From IMG/VR virus record IMGVR_UViG_3300030102_001775, positions 1-21,298 of that record: a stretch of 21,298 nucleotides of DNA; one strand, written 5' to 3'. Positions 2,225 through 14,767 of this stretch are shown one piece after another. How positions within the stretch are numbered: position 1 is the first letter of the stretch; each line of letters opens with the position of its first letter. Source of the DNA: a virus. The position numbers and the translations under genes were made by a program. The notes beneath the pieces are model-generated. The model was not told the origin of the DNA. It was given only the letters and a program-made list of their open reading frames with translations, and ran no database searches.

Positions 2225-4138
2225 TTAATATCCAAATGTTGAGTCTGCTGGTCTATATATTTCTTTTTTTAAATTTCTTATTCTTTCATACGGATTAGCT
2301 ATTCGAGGTCTGCTCATAATCATATATCGCAAAGCATCGTAAGCATGATCCGAAGCATGAGTATCTACATCTTCTGGATTTGTTTTAGACAACGGAATAC
2401 TTTGAAGTTCTCTTATTAAGTTTGGGCAACTACTAAATATTTGTAATTTAGGTCTACCACTTTCTTGAACTTTTAAATATTCATGTATCTGAATTTTTCC
2501 TTGTACTCTATTCTTATCTGCCCTTCTTAGTTTATGTCCAGCTCTTACTAAAGCTTCTCCAACTGTAGGGCCTGTTGTTCCTGTTTTAGACCATGCTGCT
2601 GTATCTAAAACTCCTGCAACAGAAAAAGGATCTTCAAGCTCCCTTTCTGTTATTATACGTCCTAAATCTTCCCCTGTCAAGCCTTTTCTATACAATTCTC
2701 TATAAATTATTAAAGTTCCATCATTAATATCTAGTGTTCCCCATAAACAACAAGACTCAGAAGCATACCCATAGTCTATTCCCTTTATTCTTTCCCAACC
2801 TATAGGTATTTCAAAAGGTGTTATAATATGTACTTTTGGATCAAACTCTGTAAAGGCTGCTCCTTCTGAAACATCCCAGTTACCTTCTAGTAATTGTCTT
2901 CTTTGAGTAGGAGGCAATGAGTTAAGCATTTGTTCATAAACACCATCCTCTGCTAAATAAGGATTATCTGCTAGTTTTGCAGGTATAAATTTTCTAGTTA
3001 ATCCATCTGTTCCTTTAAAACTTTTGTTATGAGGAGAAGGATCTATGTATCTTCTTTTAACCCAAGAAGAACCTACACCACCAGGGTTAGCAGTACAACG
3101 TAAATAAGTTTGTATATCAGAGTCAGTAGTACGAAGTCGAGAAGCAAGATAGTTCCAACTAAACTCTGTAGGTAAGTGTGTTATTTCATCAAAACCAATC
3201 CAACTATATGCTTGACCTTGATAACGATATACATCTGCATCGCGTTCAAGAAAGCCAAACTCTACTTTTGCACCACTTGGAAAGTTCCAAAGCTTTTCAA
3301 CTTCACGAAACTTAGCACCGGGAAAAGCTAGTGGATATAACTCACGCGATTTATCTATCATTTCGCGTAGTTCTGGCATAGAACGTCTAAGAATTAAAGC
3401 ACGGTGCGCTTTTTTGTGTGCGTAACGCAGTGGATCAACTAACATTGCATAGCTTTTACCACCCCCTGCTGCACCACCATAAAGAACATCTTTTTCTGAA
3501 GCTGCAAGAAAGTCTGTTTGTGGGCCTTCGTTAGGATGAAAGATAACGTGAGAGTTTTTTATAGTTTCTTGTATAGAACTGGTAGTACTTTTTAGCTCTT
3601 CTTCAGAAATTACTCTAGATTGTTTGCTTTCAGGAGGAGCTGTAACTTTTTTTAACAGTTCTTTTTCTTTTTTTAATCTTTCTTTTTTATTATGAATACG
3701 CTGTTCAGCTTTTTTAAGTTCTTTTTGTTGTTTAGCAAGAGCTAATTTTCTTTTATGCTTTGCAGAATAGTTATAACTCTTTTTAGTTCCTGAAGTATTC
3801 TTTGGTCTACCACTTTTTTTACGCGGTTTGCCATTTTTATTTAAAACAAACTCACCATTAGTATCTGTAACATACTCTTCAGGAAATATTAACCATAAAT
3901 CTTTATCTAAATAAGACTTTAAAGCTACATGACTAATCTTTCGTCCAGTTTTTTCAGACAAAAGTACAGCTGCTTCTCTTAAAGAAGCTTGTTTATTGTA
4001 AATAGAGTGTAAAGTTTTATTAAGTTCTTCTAGTTGAGAAGATATAGGCGCAAGATAGCCTTGGATATTACTTAATTTATACCCAAAAGGAATAGTAACA
4101 CTTTTTTTCTTAATATATCCTTTAGGTATGTCTGACAT
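2225..4138 (-). CDS. terL: Terminase large subunit (packaging ATPase/nuclease)
   Basis: Motor that translocates DNA into the prohead and cuts it. The ATPase part shows Walker A GGAAGGGKS (221-229), Walker B followed by the catalytic Glu in WIGFDEIT (313-320) and a coupling motif TANPGG (349-354). The RNase-H-like nuclease shows GIDYGYAS (Asp455), VLDTAAWS and a C-terminal HASDHAYDALRY (about 594-605). At 637 residues it is longer than a typical 450-550 residue terL. The extra N-terminal ~200 residues hold a helix-turn-helix-like stretch (SLREAAVLLSEKTGRKISHV, 52-71) and a very Lys-rich helical segment (about 125-165). No clear ribosome-binding site precedes the start, which lies 6 bases after the stop of the 37-residue gene. 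Confidence 0.95.
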   Translation of the reverse strand: MSDIPKGYIKKKSVTIPFGYKLSNIQGYLAPISSQLEELNKTLHSIYNKQASLREAAVLLSEKTGRKISHVALKSYLDKDLWLIFPEEYVTDTNGEFVLNKNGKPRKKSGRPKNTSGTKKSYNYSAKHKRKLALAKQQKELKKAEQRIHNKKERLKKEKELLKKVTAPPESKQSRVISEEELKSTTSSIQETIKNSHVIFHPNEGPQTDFLAASEKDVLYGGAAGGGKSYAMLVDPLRYAHKKAHRALILRRSMPELREMIDKSRELYPLAFPGAKFREVEKLWNFPSGAKVEFGFLERDADVYRYQGQAYSWIGFDEITHLPTEFSWNYLASRLRTTDSDIQTYLRCTANPGGVGSSWVKRRYIDPSPHNKSFKGTDGLTRKFIPAKLADNPYLAEDGVYEQMLNSLPPTQRRQLLEGNWDVSEGAAFTEFDPKVHIITPFEIPIGWERIKGIDYGYASESCCLWGTLDINDGTLIIYRELYRKGLTGEDLGRIITERELEDPFSVAGVLDTAAWSKTGTTGPTVGEALVRAGHKLRRADKNRVQGKIQIHEYLKVQESGRPKLQIFSSCPNLIRELQSIPLSKTNPEDVDTHASDHAYDALRYMIMSRPRIANPYERIRNLKKEIYRPADSTFGY

Positions 4139-4144
4139 ATTATA

Positions 4145-4258
4145 CTATTTCATAAAAGGTAGTTTAGAAACTAAAGATTTGTATAGTTCTGGGTTTTGTC
4201 TTTTAATTATAACAACTGCAACAACAGCTATAAAACCACCAATAAGTAGAAAATCCAT
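4145..4258 (-). CDS. 37-residue single-pass membrane microprotein between terS and terL
   Basis: Not recognised. The product begins MDFLLIGGFIAVVAVVII, one hydrophobic helix spanning residues 3-18, followed by a basic, mostly helical tail (KRQNPELYKSLVSKLPFMK). A strong GGAGG lies at 4266-4270, inside the last codons of terS, 7 bases before the ATG, and the gene fits tightly between terS and terL. These points support real translation. The single membrane span in a late-gene operon fits a lysis or membrane accessory role such as a small holin-like or spanin-related peptide, but nothing in the sequence proves this. Confidence 0.72.
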   Translation of the reverse strand: MDFLLIGGFIAVVAVVIIKRQNPELYKSLVSKLPFMK

Positions 4259-4768: not shown

Positions 4769-5010
4769 TATGCCCCCCGGGGTTGCATAGTATATATAGT
4801 ACTATATAACTTTATAAAGTTCTTTTGTGCGCGATTCACTATCTATGGGGTTCTTCTTAACACTTTAAAGTTCTGTGAAATGTAGAATCATGTGCATATA
4901 TATACCCAGGGGGGTGGGTGACTCCTGCCTCGCCCTTTAAAGACTCGCGAGTTACTTTAAAGAACCCCTCAAGCTTTTAATAGAAAATTTTTTATAGAAC
5001 TTTATAGTTC
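4769..5010. repeat. Cluster of short perfect palindromes with recurrent CTTTAAAG cores
   Basis: Perfect palindromes seen: CCCCGGGG (4775-4782) inside a TATGC/GCATA inverted repeat (4769-4773, 4785-4789); TATATAGTACTATATA (4793-4808); AACTTTATAAAGTT (4808-4821); ACTTTAAAGT (4862-4871); CTTTAAAG (4935-4942 and 4955-4962); ACTCGCGAGT (4943-4952). An imperfect relative is GAACT-TTAT-AGTTC (4997-5010). The first three lie end to end within 40 bases. Such sites commonly bind dimeric proteins or mark packaging or replication start sites; which applies here is unknown. Confidence 0.75.
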
Positions 5011-5280: not shown

Positions 5281-5316
5281 AAAAAAAAAAGACTCCGTAT
5301 CTCTACAGAGTCTTTT
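5281..5316 (-). terminator. Intrinsic terminator, copy 1 (end of leftward unit 3)
   Basis: In minus-strand RNA a 9-pair stem (5312-5304 with 5299-5291) closes on a GAGA tetraloop and is followed by ten U (5290-5281). One pair (5307/5296) is G.U in minus RNA but C.A in plus RNA, so the structure is optimised for the leftward transcript. It ends the 57-residue gene and insulates the gene-free region. It shares sequence with copies at 5576-5612 and 6154-6189. Confidence 0.88.
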
Positions 5317-6155: not shown

Positions 6156-6189
6156 AAAAAAAGACCCCATATTTCTATAGAGTCTTTTT
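6154..6189 (-). terminator. Intrinsic terminator, copy 3 (end of leftward unit 1)
   Basis: In minus-strand RNA a 9-pair stem (6184-6176 with 6171-6163) closes on a GAAA tetraloop and is followed by nine U (6162-6154). Two pairs are G.U in minus RNA but C.A in plus RNA, so the hairpin is intact only in the leftward transcript. Confidence 0.88.
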
Positions 6190-7200: not shown

Positions 7201-7216
7201 CTAGTTACATAGGAGT

Positions 7217-7246
7217 TTGACAGAAATTTTGGGTTGTGGATATACT
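7217..7246 (+). promoter_or_regulatory. Early rightward promoter P1
   Basis: TTGACA (7217-7222), an 18-base spacer and TATACT (7241-7246, one mismatch). The predicted start is about 7253, leaving a leader of roughly 420 bases before the first gene at 7676. The -35 and flanks (TAGGAGTTTGACAGA) are repeated at P2. Confidence 0.75.
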
Positions 7247-7258
7247 GTCTCCACAGAT

Positions 7259-7334
7259 TAGCCAAGTGGCTATGAAGTACTCTACAGAGCTATACAGTTT
7301 CTTTATTGTTATCTTTACTGTTATCTTTGTAGAG
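7259..7334 (+). promoter_or_regulatory. Hairpins and direct repeat at the start of the P1 leader
   Basis: Just after the predicted P1 start lies a perfect inverted repeat TAGCCA-AG-TGGCTA (7259-7272). Next CTCTACA (7280-7286) pairs with TGTAGAG (7328-7334). Between those arms TGTTATCTTT occurs twice (7307-7316 and 7319-7328), 12 bases apart. The first palindrome could be an operator at the transcription start or an RNA stem-loop. Confidence 0.5.
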
Positions 7335-7377
7335 TTATAACTATAGGTGGTTGGATACCTAAACCAACACACTGTTT

Positions 7378-7581
7378 GATAGTTCCAGTGATAAAGGAGG
7401 AACAAACTATCGGTAGTTTTTAGTTATCTGCTCAACCAAAAACTATCAAGCAGTTGGTAGTCTGCTATAAAAAACTACCAGTCTGAATTTTAGCATCATG
7501 CATGACAGTGATGTGGTTTAGCCGACTTAAAACTGCTATAACCCAACTCAGCAGTTGGTAGTCTGCTTTATCAAAACTACC
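7378..7581 (+). repeat. Repeat-rich structured leader between P1 and P2
   Basis: A 33-base unit beginning AGCAGTTGGTAGTCTGCT is present twice (7449-7479 and 7550-7581, 101 bases apart), each holding a GGTAGT...ACTACC stem. Further stems: GATAGTT/AACTATC (7378-7384, 7405-7411) presenting AAAGGAGG in its loop without a nearby start codon; GGTAGTTTTT/AAAAACTATC (7412-7421, 7438-7447); AACTGCT/AGCAGTT (7531-7537, 7550-7556); CCAACT/AGTTGG (7543-7548, 7553-7558). Several stems share bases, so alternative folds are possible. TCATGCATGA at 7496-7505 is a perfect palindrome. Either a regulatory RNA leader or DNA iterons would fit. Confidence 0.65.
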
Positions 7582-7598
7582 CCCCATTACTTAGGAGT

Positions 7599-7628
7599 TT
7601 GACAGAGATTTCTGCATGGTGCTACCAT
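7599..7628 (+). promoter_or_regulatory. Early rightward promoter P2
   Basis: TTGACA (7599-7604), an 18-base spacer and TACCAT (7623-7628, two mismatches), with the same -35 context and spacing as P1. The predicted start is about 7635, giving a 40-base leader to the gene at 7676. AAACCAACACAC follows both promoters (7361-7372 and 7637-7648), so a promoter-plus-leader block seems duplicated. Confidence 0.62.
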
Positions 7629-7675
7629 GTTCTGTGAAACCAACACACAACCATTTGTAACTGAGGAGATTACAT

Positions 7676-8380
7676 ATGTCATACAAAATTTTAGCACAAC
7701 CCAATTCTAATCCCAAAGTAAAGAAGGGTAACACTAAAGATAGTGATTACATTACAACTATCGTCCACCTTAGACCTGTATCAACTAGCATATGTCCTTA
7801 TCAAAATATAGCTAAATGTAAGGAGGCCTGTTTAAATACTGCAGGTTTAGGAGGAGTCTATCCAAGTATTCAAAAGTCTAGACAAGCTAAGACAGATTTG
7901 TTTTTGAATGATAGAGAAACTTTTATGACTATGCTTTACAAAGACATAGAAAAGTTTGTAAGATTCTGTGAAAAGAAAAACAAGAAACCTGCAATCAGAT
8001 TAAACGGCACATCAGATATTCAATGGGAGACTATTAAGCATGAAGGTGTGACCGCCTTTGAAAAGTTTCCTCAAGTTCAGTTCTATGACTACACTAAAAT
8101 TCCAACAAGGAAAATATCTCACATACCTAACTATCATTTAACTTGGTCTTACTCAGAAGCCAATCAAAAGTATGCAAACTATTTTGATAAACTTAAATAC
8201 AACATTGCTGTTGTCTTTAACAGCAAGACACTACCACCTATGTTTAAAGGGTTACGAGTCATTGACGGAGATAAAACTGACATGAGATTTCTTGATGGTA
8301 ATAAGCGTGTTGTAGTAGGACTGAGAGCAAAGGGTAAAGCTAAGACAGATACAAGTGGCTTTGTAATTAACTGGAGGTAA
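7676..8380 (+). CDS. Gp88-family phage protein
   Basis: Matches from memory the phage 'gene product 88' family of unknown function: CPYQNIAKCKEACLNTAG (40-57), RLNGTSDIQW (108-117), VQFYDYTK (134-141), YHLTWSYSE (153-161) and VIDGDKTDMRFLDG (195-208). The three Cys (40, 48, 52; C-x7-C-x3-C) and a run of predicted beta strands ending in short polar motifs resemble a metal or Fe-S site on a barrel-like fold, which is inference. It is the first gene after P1/P2, with GAGGAG upstream of the ATG, so it is probably made early and in quantity. Confidence 0.85.
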   Translation: MSYKILAQPNSNPKVKKGNTKDSDYITTIVHLRPVSTSICPYQNIAKCKEACLNTAGLGGVYPSIQKSRQAKTDLFLNDRETFMTMLYKDIEKFVRFCEKKNKKPAIRLNGTSDIQWETIKHEGVTAFEKFPQVQFYDYTKIPTRKISHIPNYHLTWSYSEANQKYANYFDKLKYNIAVVFNSKTLPPMFKGLRVIDGDKTDMRFLDGNKRVVVGLRAKGKAKTDTSGFVINWR

Positions 8381-11046: not shown

Positions 11047-12294
11047 ATGAAACCAATAAATGTATTCTCATTATTTGATGGTATGTCTTGCGGTCAGTTG
11101 GCATTAAAAAAAGCAGGAGTACCAATAGGTATTTATCATGCTAGTGAGATTGATAAATGGGCAATCAAAGTAACTAAAAAGAACTTTCCATTCACCATAC
11201 AAATGGGAGACATAACTAAACTTGAAGATGCTAGATTAGAAGTTATCAGAAAAGAAATAGGAATTGATTTAGTTATGGGTGGCTCACCTTGTCAAGGATT
11301 TAGTTTTGCAGGAAAGAATCTAAACTTTGAAGACCCAAGAAGTAAACTGTTCTTTGAATTTGTTAGAGTCTTAAAAATACTTAAGCCTAAATATTTCCTA
11401 CTTGAAAATGTCCGAATGAAAAAAGAATCTCAGGACATTATCAGTGAGTACATGGGGATTGAGCCAACAGTAATTAATTCAAATTTAGTTAGCGCACAGA
11501 ATCGTCACAGACTTTATTGGACTAACATTCCTTTTGATATGCCAGAAGATAAAGGTTTGATACTTGCTGATGTGTTAGAGCCTTTAGAAGACCTCGATCC
11601 TAAGTATCTAGCAGGAGATAAACTCTTGAAAAATTACACAGGAGGAAACCAATTAAATCCTAATTACAAGAGCCAAGCCAATACTATACACGACATTACA
11701 AAACCAGGCCCTACTGTATGTGCAGGAACTCATGGCTACGCTAATGGATATATTTCAGGCGGTGCTATTCGTGGTCGCTATGACAAAGACGGAAAGATTA
11801 AACAACAGTTAGAACTTAGACTTGACAATAAAACTAACTCACTTACCACAGTTCAAAAAGATAATGTGGTTGTTACTAGATGTATTCAAGTAGGCGAAGC
11901 AGATTTAAAAGGACACGATATACTCAAAAGAGTTTATAGTCCTCAAGGAAAAGCACCAACACTTAATACAATGGGTGGAGGTAACAGAGAACCTAAAGTA
12001 GTTATAAGAAAGAAATCTAAAACAGTCAGGTCAGGAGGTAGAGGTTCTTATGATAGGCACGAATGGGATAGTGTAGATAATTTACATTGGAGAAAACTAA
12101 CACCTCTTGAGTGTGAGAGATTACAGACTGTTCCTGATAACTATACTAATCATGTATCAGATACTCAGAGGTACAAGATGTTAGGCAATGGGTGGACTGT
12201 AGATGTGGTCGCTCATATTTTAAAAGGTATAAGACACAAAGAAGAAGGTTTAGAGATGATAAACAAATGGACTAAATATGGAGTTGCTCTATGA
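11047..12294 (+). CDS. DNA (cytosine-5)-methyltransferase
   Basis: Transfers a methyl group from S-adenosylmethionine to C5 of cytosine in DNA. Motif I is FSLFDGMSCGQ (7-17), motif IV is GGSPCQGFS with catalytic Cys82, motif VI is LLENV (118-122), motif VIII is AQNRHRLYW (150-158), motif IX is RKLTPLECERLQ (349-360), and motif X is GNGWTVDVV (380-388). The variable target-recognition region is about 180-340. The length (415) is usual for a complete enzyme. No partner restriction enzyme is next to it, so it is an orphan that likely protects phage DNA from host restriction or alters expression. GGAGGTGA precedes the start. Confidence 0.95.
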   Translation: MKPINVFSLFDGMSCGQLALKKAGVPIGIYHASEIDKWAIKVTKKNFPFTIQMGDITKLEDARLEVIRKEIGIDLVMGGSPCQGFSFAGKNLNFEDPRSKLFFEFVRVLKILKPKYFLLENVRMKKESQDIISEYMGIEPTVINSNLVSAQNRHRLYWTNIPFDMPEDKGLILADVLEPLEDLDPKYLAGDKLLKNYTGGNQLNPNYKSQANTIHDITKPGPTVCAGTHGYANGYISGGAIRGRYDKDGKIKQQLELRLDNKTNSLTTVQKDNVVVTRCIQVGEADLKGHDILKRVYSPQGKAPTLNTMGGGNREPKVVIRKKSKTVRSGGRGSYDRHEWDSVDNLHWRKLTPLECERLQTVPDNYTNHVSDTQRYKMLGNGWTVDVVAHILKGIRHKEEGLEMINKWTKYGVAL

Positions 12295-13846: not shown

Positions 13847-13951
13847 ATGTTAAATATCTTTTTAATATTATCTACCACTTTTATCTCCTTCAAACATAGG
13901 TAGTATTAACTGTTATCAGACTAGCCAGTGGTCTAGTGAAGAGAAACCACT
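13847..13951 (+). promoter_or_regulatory. Structured leader upstream of the SSB gene
   Basis: The 155-base gap 13832-13986 holds competing stems. TTAATA...CTACC (13862-13875) pairs with GGTAG-TATTAA (13899-13909) around a loop with CTCCTT. Further on, ACTAG/CTAGT (13920-13924, 13933-13937) competes with AGTGGT/ACCACT (13927-13932, 13946-13951), which is followed by ATTTTT. A possible 18-codon leader frame (ATG at 13847, stop at 13901-13903) overlaps the first stem. The arrangement suggests attenuation or translational autocontrol of the SSB; this is inference. Confidence 0.4.
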
Positions 13952-13986: not shown

Positions 13987-14436
13987 ATGGCAATAGAAAG
14001 TGGACTCGCTTATTGGGCGAGTGTTAGAAATCCTAACCTCAAATTTGAACCTGTCTACACAGTAGACTTGGTAGTTGACGAGGAGGTAGCAAAGAAGTAC
14101 GAGTCGAAAGGCTATAAAGTCAAGACATTGGTTGTAAATGACGAAGTGGTCGGAAAAGCATTAACAATAAAAAGAAAGGTTAATGGCCCTGATGGAATGA
14201 TAAGGAAAGCACCTAAACTCGTAGATGCTAAGAAGAATGTACTAGATGATGACGTGTTAGTAGGTAACGGATCGAAGGTAAGAGTACAGTTCAGTGAGTG
14301 GGAAGTAAGTAATAAGTATGGCAACTTTAAAGGACTTGATTTTCAAGGTCTCCAGGTTATTGATCTTGTATCATACAAAGGAGCTGACGGAGAAGAGTTC
14401 GATGCTGTCGGAGAAGATTCAGTAGAGGAGTTTTAA
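13987..14436 (+). CDS. Single-stranded DNA-binding protein, T7 gp2.5-like
   Basis: Predicted OB-fold protein that coats single-stranded DNA and coordinates polymerase and helicase. It is 149 residues long. The body has alternating strands (VYTVDLVVDEE, YKVKTLVV, ALTIKRKV, KVRVQFSEWEV, LDFQGLQVIDLV) and a K/R-containing central region. The C-terminus is strongly acidic and ends in Phe (DAVGEDSVEEF), the signature of phage and bacterial SSBs. The position ahead of primase-helicase and polymerase fits the T7 plan. AAGAGGA precedes the start. Confidence 0.85.
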   Translation: MAIESGLAYWASVRNPNLKFEPVYTVDLVVDEEVAKKYESKGYKVKTLVVNDEVVGKALTIKRKVNGPDGMIRKAPKLVDAKKNVLDDDVLVGNGSKVRVQFSEWEVSNKYGNFKGLDFQGLQVIDLVSYKGADGEEFDAVGEDSVEEF

Positions 14437-14709: not shown

Positions 14710-14767
14710 GCTAGTCACTTTTTAGTTTGTACGGATTGAAGATAGCTGAAAAGTGTCTAGCTTTTTT
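14710..14767 (+). terminator. Intrinsic terminator/attenuator before primase-helicase
   Basis: A long stem (14710-14725 with 14746-14761; one T.T mismatch and one T.G wobble) with a 20-base loop is followed by TTTTTT (14762-14767). It lies between the SSB unit and the primase-helicase gene, whose ATG is 13 bases further on with AAGGAGATATA between. No new promoter is evident, so it probably reduces rather than blocks downstream transcription. Confidence 0.85.

Follow-up and report, generated by a model that had tools for sequence, protein, structure and literature searches.

Predicted pseudoknots in a promoter leader and ahead of many genes of uncultured marine phages: a possible counterpart of the T4 gene 32 operator

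The window (the whole 21,298-nt stretch of viral DNA that was analysed, positions 1 to 21,298 of IMG/VR record IMGVR_UViG_3300030102_001775) contains two promoter-like sites, P1 and P2, ahead of a gene of the GP88 family. The features of this region are listed below. Pseudoknots are written strand by strand, with stems in capitals, loops in lower case, and a dash for an absent loop.

7205..7246, + strand: promoter P1 with the shared upstream repeat (-35 TTGACA at 7217, -10 TATACT ending at 7246)
7279..7335, + strand: hairpin opening the P1 leader (arms ACTCTACAGAGCTA / TATCTTTGTAGAGT)
7345..7368, + strand: predicted pseudoknot PK0, AGGT.g.GTTGG.at.ACCT.aaa.CCAAC
7370..7411, + strand: predicted pseudoknot PK-A, CACTG.ttt.GATAGTT.c.CAGTG.ataaaggaggaaca.AACTATC
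7412..7447, + strand: putative pseudoknot PK-B, decayed in the window (four of six stem-2 pairs left)
7449..7480, + strand: predicted pseudoknot PK-C, first repeat copy, AGCAG.t.TGGTAGT.-.CTGCT.ataaaaa.ACTACCA
7550..7581, + strand: predicted pseudoknot PK-D, second repeat copy, directly 5' of P2, AGCAG.tt.GGTAGT.-.CTGCT.ttatcaaa.ACTACC
7587..7628, + strand: promoter P2 with the same upstream repeat (-35 TTGACA at 7599, -10 TACCAT ending at 7628)
7676..8380, + strand: GP88 family gene (PF17338), first after the leader, function unknown

P1 is TTGACA-18-TATACT (7217-7246) and matches 11 of 12 consensus bases; P2 is TTGACA-18-TACCAT (7599-7628), matches 10 of 12, and has TG preceding its -10 box. 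The two sites share a 25-nt repeat (TTACATAGGAGTTTGACAGAAATTT at 7205-7229 and TTACTTAGGAGTTTGACAGAGATTT at 7587-7611, 92% identity). The common -35 context and the 18-base spacers described in an earlier sequence-only reading of this DNA are thus present. That reading had also placed AAACCAACACAC downstream of both promoters. Two copies do exist, at 7361 and 7637, but they lie about 114 and 8 nt past the -10 boxes of P1 and P2, and because these distances differ by roughly 100 nt, AAACCAACACAC was rejected as a fixed part of the promoter. The copy on the P1 side contains the 3' strand of a pseudoknot. In the related records L014/L015 and L214, the -35 box of P1 is identical and the whole site near-identical, and P2 is unchanged in L014/L015. 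Since close relatives retain P1, P2 and the pseudoknots, the arrangement in the window is more than a chance observation.

From P1 to the GP88 start codon at 7676, the leader measures about 420 nt and contains no recognisable gene, as had been proposed for P1 transcripts. The two copies of a 33-base repeat, 101 bases apart, were confirmed between P1 and P2: 7449-7474 and 7550-7575 are 88% identical over 26 nt, and the similarity is longer when the shared AAAACTACC is included. Each copy is predicted to fold as an H-type pseudoknot, AGCAG-tt-GGTAGT-CTGCT-A-rich loop-ACTACC. Between the AGCAG and CTGCT arms lies the 5' strand of a second stem; its ACTACC partner is found downstream, and the stems therefore cross. 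Loop 1 has 1-2 nt, loop 2 is absent, and loop 3 consists of 7-8 A-rich nucleotides. The stems reported earlier as mutually exclusive are real, but in most cases such a pair consists of the two stems that cross within one pseudoknot; some are true alternatives, such as 7520-7537 pairing with 7550-7567. Likewise, the loop carrying AAAGGAGG without a start codon was found to be loop 3 of PK-A, and no start codon lies downstream of it. Judged by base pairing, small H-type pseudoknots, one of them a decayed copy, form a nearly unbroken array along the P1 leader, with 0-2 nt between units except for 69 nt ahead of PK-D.

The individual units were followed through the relatives. The opening hairpin is conserved in L014/L015 and L214, and a looser version is found in L001/L021. 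PK0 is also found in L004 and L097 (AGGT.t), L014 (GGGT.t, loop 1 changed), L118 and L214; its support is weaker because few sequence changes occur among the copies. Stem 2 of PK-A is retained in L004, L014, L097 and L118, with a weaker stem 1 in relatives. PK-B is intact in L014 (4758-4794, GGTAG.t.TGGTAGTT.at.CTGCT..AACTATCA), and PK-D is retained in L014/L015. At PK-C, the orthologous P1 leader of L214, which was found via PK0, has AGTAG..CTACT in place of AGCAG..CTGCT with identical flanks. This change is compensatory by pairing and represents an independent case of covariation. The leaders of the window, L004, L014/L015, L097, L118 and L214 are composites with shared modules in different orders, which supports the view that recombination between such modules assembled the array and continues to exchange it.

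Other structures were observed nearby. In L001 (4870-4975), an apparently whole second pseudoknot lies inside loop 3 of a GGTAGT pseudoknot, and in L215, L221 and L239, an insert of about 38 nt in the same loop forms a hairpin. Between the pseudoknots of L097 (approximately 4100-4195) and L118 (approximately 3760-3855, reverse strand), there is a structured module GTTTAAATAGAGGACTTCAGAGTGC...CATAGGTWTCTATTTAAAC with a long outer stem and no Rfam match. In the leftward left part of the window, the minus strand carries a pair of strong intrinsic terminators that are related to each other (AAAAGACTCTGTAGAG.. and AAAAAGACTCTATAGA..), at 5287-5316 and 6158-6189. A pseudoknot-like inverted repeat (4929-4960, CTCGC.c.CTTTAAAG.actc.GCGAG.tta.CTTTAAAG) lies in a 950-base gap between leftward genes, where strong sigma-70-like sites are found on both strands. 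The early region also contains a DNA cytosine methyltransferase-like gene (11047-12294; PADLOC orphan methyltransferase model).

To search for the element elsewhere, we queried IMG/VR with stem 2 only, and many phages were found to carry such a site. Of 75 distinct non-coding sites that had been selected by their stem 2, 42 had a matching stem 1 (at least four pairs), while permuted left flanks gave 14.3 of 75 (maximum 24, 1000 permutations). For the non-redundant sites, stem 1 matched in 29 of 61, compared to 9.7 after permutation (maximum 19, 2000 permutations). A scan blind to the motif was also performed, in which loci were picked by the GP88 protein only and any such pseudoknot was counted. 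The 906 leaders contained 56 pseudoknots (47 distinct), compared to 5.7 in shuffled sequences (maximum 11). The opposite strand gave 19; this count cannot serve as a clean null, as a pseudoknot remains a pseudoknot when reverse-complemented. The same leader scan of nine reference phages (HTVC103P, 104P, 115P, 011P, 120P, 023P, 008M, HMO-2011 and T7) gave 5 pseudoknots versus 1.8 in shuffles. These counts are near background, and the class is therefore no general feature of marine podoviruses. No match to the exact pseudoknot core was found in bacterial genomes. Score thresholds for pseudoknots were fixed after the first examples had been seen, and genes were called by simple ORF rules.

The sequences of both stems vary across the class. 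As MAFFT put the stems out of register in SSB leaders of unequal loop lengths, the formal covariation count was limited to ungapped natural 31-mers. In 14 such elements, a set that leans towards structure because most rows came from pseudoknot searches, 99.4% of cells pair and double changes occur in 9 of 11 pairs. The covariation value was 0.787, compared to 0.228 in shuffles and at most 0.173 with slid partners. Even where loop 3 is enlarged by about 38 nt (L215, L221, L239), stem 2 is retained. A genome-wide array search at a low score threshold separated poorly from shuffles (48 versus 27), and the arrays therefore rest on individually strong units and their conservation. The sequence-only reading had staked its proposal on the stems covarying and being conserved, and both were observed. 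These results support a structured regulatory RNA, one of the options it had offered, although it misread the stems as mutually exclusive hairpins. Its second option, a put-like anti-terminator, is unsupported because the element also stands singly before many internal genes and not only after early promoters. Iterons were rejected, since the elements are strand-specific, their stems covary and the unit sequences differ.

By sequence and position, the pseudoknot class is dispersed in related uncultured marine phages, about 30 nt 5' of many start codons; only uncultured contigs are rich in it. Most copies are single and internal, ahead of individual genes. The distance from the pseudoknot end to the ATG is 30 ± 10 nt, and that from the preceding stop codon to the pseudoknot is 66 ± 57 nt. 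A U-rich tract lies 3-9 nt 3' of the pseudoknot and is followed by a Shine-Dalgarno site; TTTTTA occurs in 36% of these spacers and in 6% of other leaders. The genes downstream encode SSB, primase-helicase, GP88, a DUF932 protein and many small unknown proteins. In the window, L014/L015, L020, L130, L222 and L228, a pseudoknot stands before a promoter and not directly before a ribosome-binding site. The nearest cultured phages of the window infect abundant SAR11 bacteria. On the minus strand of the cultured Pelagibacter phage HTVC115P (L203, position 37856), a lone good pseudoknot was found 28 nt before a gene of the structural region, and it could possibly give laboratory access to the class.

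Among the gene families with a pseudoknot upstream, that of the single-stranded DNA-binding protein (SSB) is the largest; it is represented in the window by the following features.

13920..13951, + strand: predicted pseudoknot of the same class before the SSB gene, ACTAG.cc.AGTGGT.-.CTAGT.gaagagaa.ACCACT
13987..14436, + strand: gene for a gp2.5-like ssDNA-binding protein (phrog_112, E 2e-9)

The pseudoknot ends 35 nt before the ATG and is followed by ACTAATTTTTAAACGCC. The structural model of the protein (pLDDT 82) has T7 gp2.5 as its best fold match (1je5, E 1.5e-7) and is also close to the Enc34 SSB; the acidic C-terminus ends in a phenylalanine that is invariant in the alignment. Of 76 SSB homologues, 37 carry a pseudoknot. 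Most of those examined among the other 39 have a TTGACA..TATAAT promoter in its place. The two are seldom found together upstream of SSB genes, L020 and L130 having a pseudoknot and then a promoter.

We tentatively favour, with slightly less than even confidence, the explanation that the pseudoknots are a cis element on the mRNA at gene starts that resembles the gp32 operator. As in the operator of T4 gene 32, each pseudoknot would be recognised by its structure and bound by a phage protein, for which the phage's own SSB is the best candidate. From there, the SSB would extend over the U-rich tract until it covers the ribosome-binding site, and the expression of genes for DNA metabolism would be tied to free SSB. 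Messages from P1 might be controlled, or protected, through the several sites upstream of P2, while those from P2, which begin 3' of all array units, would escape control by the array. The element may act either by blocking translation or by setting mRNA ends. Several points count against the operator explanation: the pseudoknot is missing in 39 of the 76 SSB homologues, some copies precede promoters rather than a ribosome-binding site, gp2.5-type SSBs of the T7 kind are not known as autogenous repressors, and GGT or AGT is frequent at the end of stem 2, which may reflect a specific binder other than SSB. A wider version of the proposal, a post-transcriptional regulon in which one gp2.5-type SSB binds many dispersed pseudoknots resembling the gp32 operator and the early-leader arrays and thereby coordinates replication genes with the amount of ssDNA, we consider unlikely.

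The main rival is an element of mRNA processing or stability, because it explains the copies before promoters equally well; we regard it as possible, if rather unlikely. The pseudoknot would block exonucleases or mark a fragment end, and an RNase E-like endonuclease would cut in the U-rich tract. In this way, cistrons would be separated, and either the 3' end of the upstream message protected or the 5' end of the downstream one set. The strong U-rich single-stranded tract 3-9 nt past the pseudoknot is consistent with this, positions before a ribosome-binding site and before a promoter suit it equally, and pseudoknot and dedicated promoter alternate ahead of SSB genes. Moreover, T4 gene 32 mRNA is itself processed by RNase E, according to references listed in PMC3014915. 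However, the position of the pseudoknot is fixed to the downstream start codon and not to the upstream stop codon, and both stems are short, at about -5 and -6.5 kcal/mol.

Pausing or partial termination of the polymerase at the pseudoknot and a T-run, which would grade expression along the operon, is improbable. A T-run is present after about half of the pseudoknots, and the window has a true terminator-like hairpin with T6 at 14710-14767, directly before the primase start codon. In 35 of the 61 pseudoknots with a run, however, the run starts 4-5 nt past the stem, compared to 0 nt in the terminator-type hairpins of the window, and 57 of 118 pseudoknots have no T-run. Because of this displacement, and because the run is missing in half of the cases, termination is less likely. 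The hairpin before the primase gene (GCTAG-t-CACTTTT..AAAAGTG-t-CTAGC followed by T6, about 13 nt from the start codon) is attenuator-like; at its position, several relatives show a different hairpin or a pseudoknot.

We consider it quite improbable that the elements are recombination linkers for shuffling small genes, with the array of the window as a scar of lost genes that does no regulatory work. The same 18-mer occurs in 40 viral stretches ahead of different genes, the composite leaders described above share modules in differing orders, and in L001 a small gene occupies the place that is only leader in the window. Linkers need sequence identity, yet the stems vary while pairing is kept, and both position and strand of the pseudoknot are fixed relative to the start codon.

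A small-molecule riboswitch or a decoy RNA resembling type III toxin-antitoxin systems is very improbable: the H-type pseudoknot of PreQ1-I (RF00522) weakly matches one site (L004 4092-4132, 14.2 bits, far below the gathering score of 39) and ToxI antitoxins are tandem pseudoknots, but there is no conserved sequence of a ligand pocket over the class, the downstream genes are unrelated, no toxin-like gene was found among the ten window proteins tested, and the array units are unlike each other.

These two systems nevertheless share features with the class. PreQ1-I is a small H-type pseudoknot with an A-rich loop 3; the class has no matching consensus, no match was found in the window leader at E ≤ 5, and the genes behind the class are not queuosine genes. 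ToxI arrays consist of tandem pseudoknots of about 36 nt each. The window array has the tandem arrangement in common with these repeats (PMC8860590), but its units differ from each other, and most copies of the class are single and spread over operons. The gene next to the array is GP88, and no toxin model was found in the ten window proteins tested. In lambdoid phages, put RNA stands at the beginning of early transcripts and lets the polymerase read through terminators; this location partly fits P1, but most copies of the class are internal before single genes. In T4-type phages, PeSL cassettes are repeated intergenic modules of a promoter plus a structure that are linked to gene shuffling. 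The class also consists of repeated intergenic modules, but its structure is a pseudoknot with covarying stems, and a promoter is usually absent.

In Rfam searches at gathering and at relaxed cut-offs, nothing scored above threshold. The class provides a large natural set of sequence-diverse pseudoknots, none of which matches an Rfam family. A DUF2815 RNA match, weak and below threshold at T4 gene 32 and absent in the window, was rejected. The statement in the sequence-only reading that the leader cannot be assigned to a known class holds as regards Rfam membership; it is partly solved by the likeness to the T4 gene 32 operator and the resemblance to STAXI. By theme, STAXI is the closest RNA motif: it is a pseudoknot repeated in tandem, close to genes for SSB and other functions in DNA handling (PMC2864571). 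STAXI units, however, are repeats with UUCG tetraloops, whereas those described here are sequence-diverse, mostly single and right before start codons. In STAXI, 2-3 tandem copies lie near SSB genes; here, tandem arrays are present ahead of GP88 and small genes, and the SSB gene has a single copy. None of ten related records matched the STAXI model (RF01728) at E ≤ 10, nor did the window at the gathering cut-off.

In T4 and RB69, gp32 nucleates at a pseudoknot and spreads along an unstructured stretch over the ribosome-binding site, with relaxed requirements for sequence and strict ones for structure (PMC535899; see also PMC3014915 for the T4 gene 32 operator). Our scan recovered this operator in T4 (TGCC.a.GCTATGA.-.GGTA.aagtg.TCATAGC, 39 nt before the ATG and followed by UUAAA repeats). 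The T4/RB69 operator and the class share a stem 1 of 4-5 bp, a loop 1 of 1-2 nt, a stem 2 of 6-7 bp, no loop 2, a short loop 3, and a structure that stays while the sequence varies. At the SSB gene, both end 35-39 nt before the start codon, with an A/U-rich stretch and then the Shine-Dalgarno site downstream (PMC535899). Of the characteristics of the gp32 system, the H-type pseudoknot 5' of the SSB gene (13920-13951; 37 of 76 homologues) and the A/U-rich, less structured stretch before the ribosome-binding site (TTTTTA, 36% versus 6%) were both found, while the SSB is not homologous to gp32 but gp2.5-like by PHROGs and fold. Unlike the T4 operator, the class is found at many genes and in tandem arrays, together with an SSB of the T7 gp2.5 type, and repression is suggested by analogy. 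If the class works like the T4 operator, this principle would either have evolved or have been retained in phages that are not T4-type, where it would involve another SSB fold family and control many genes.
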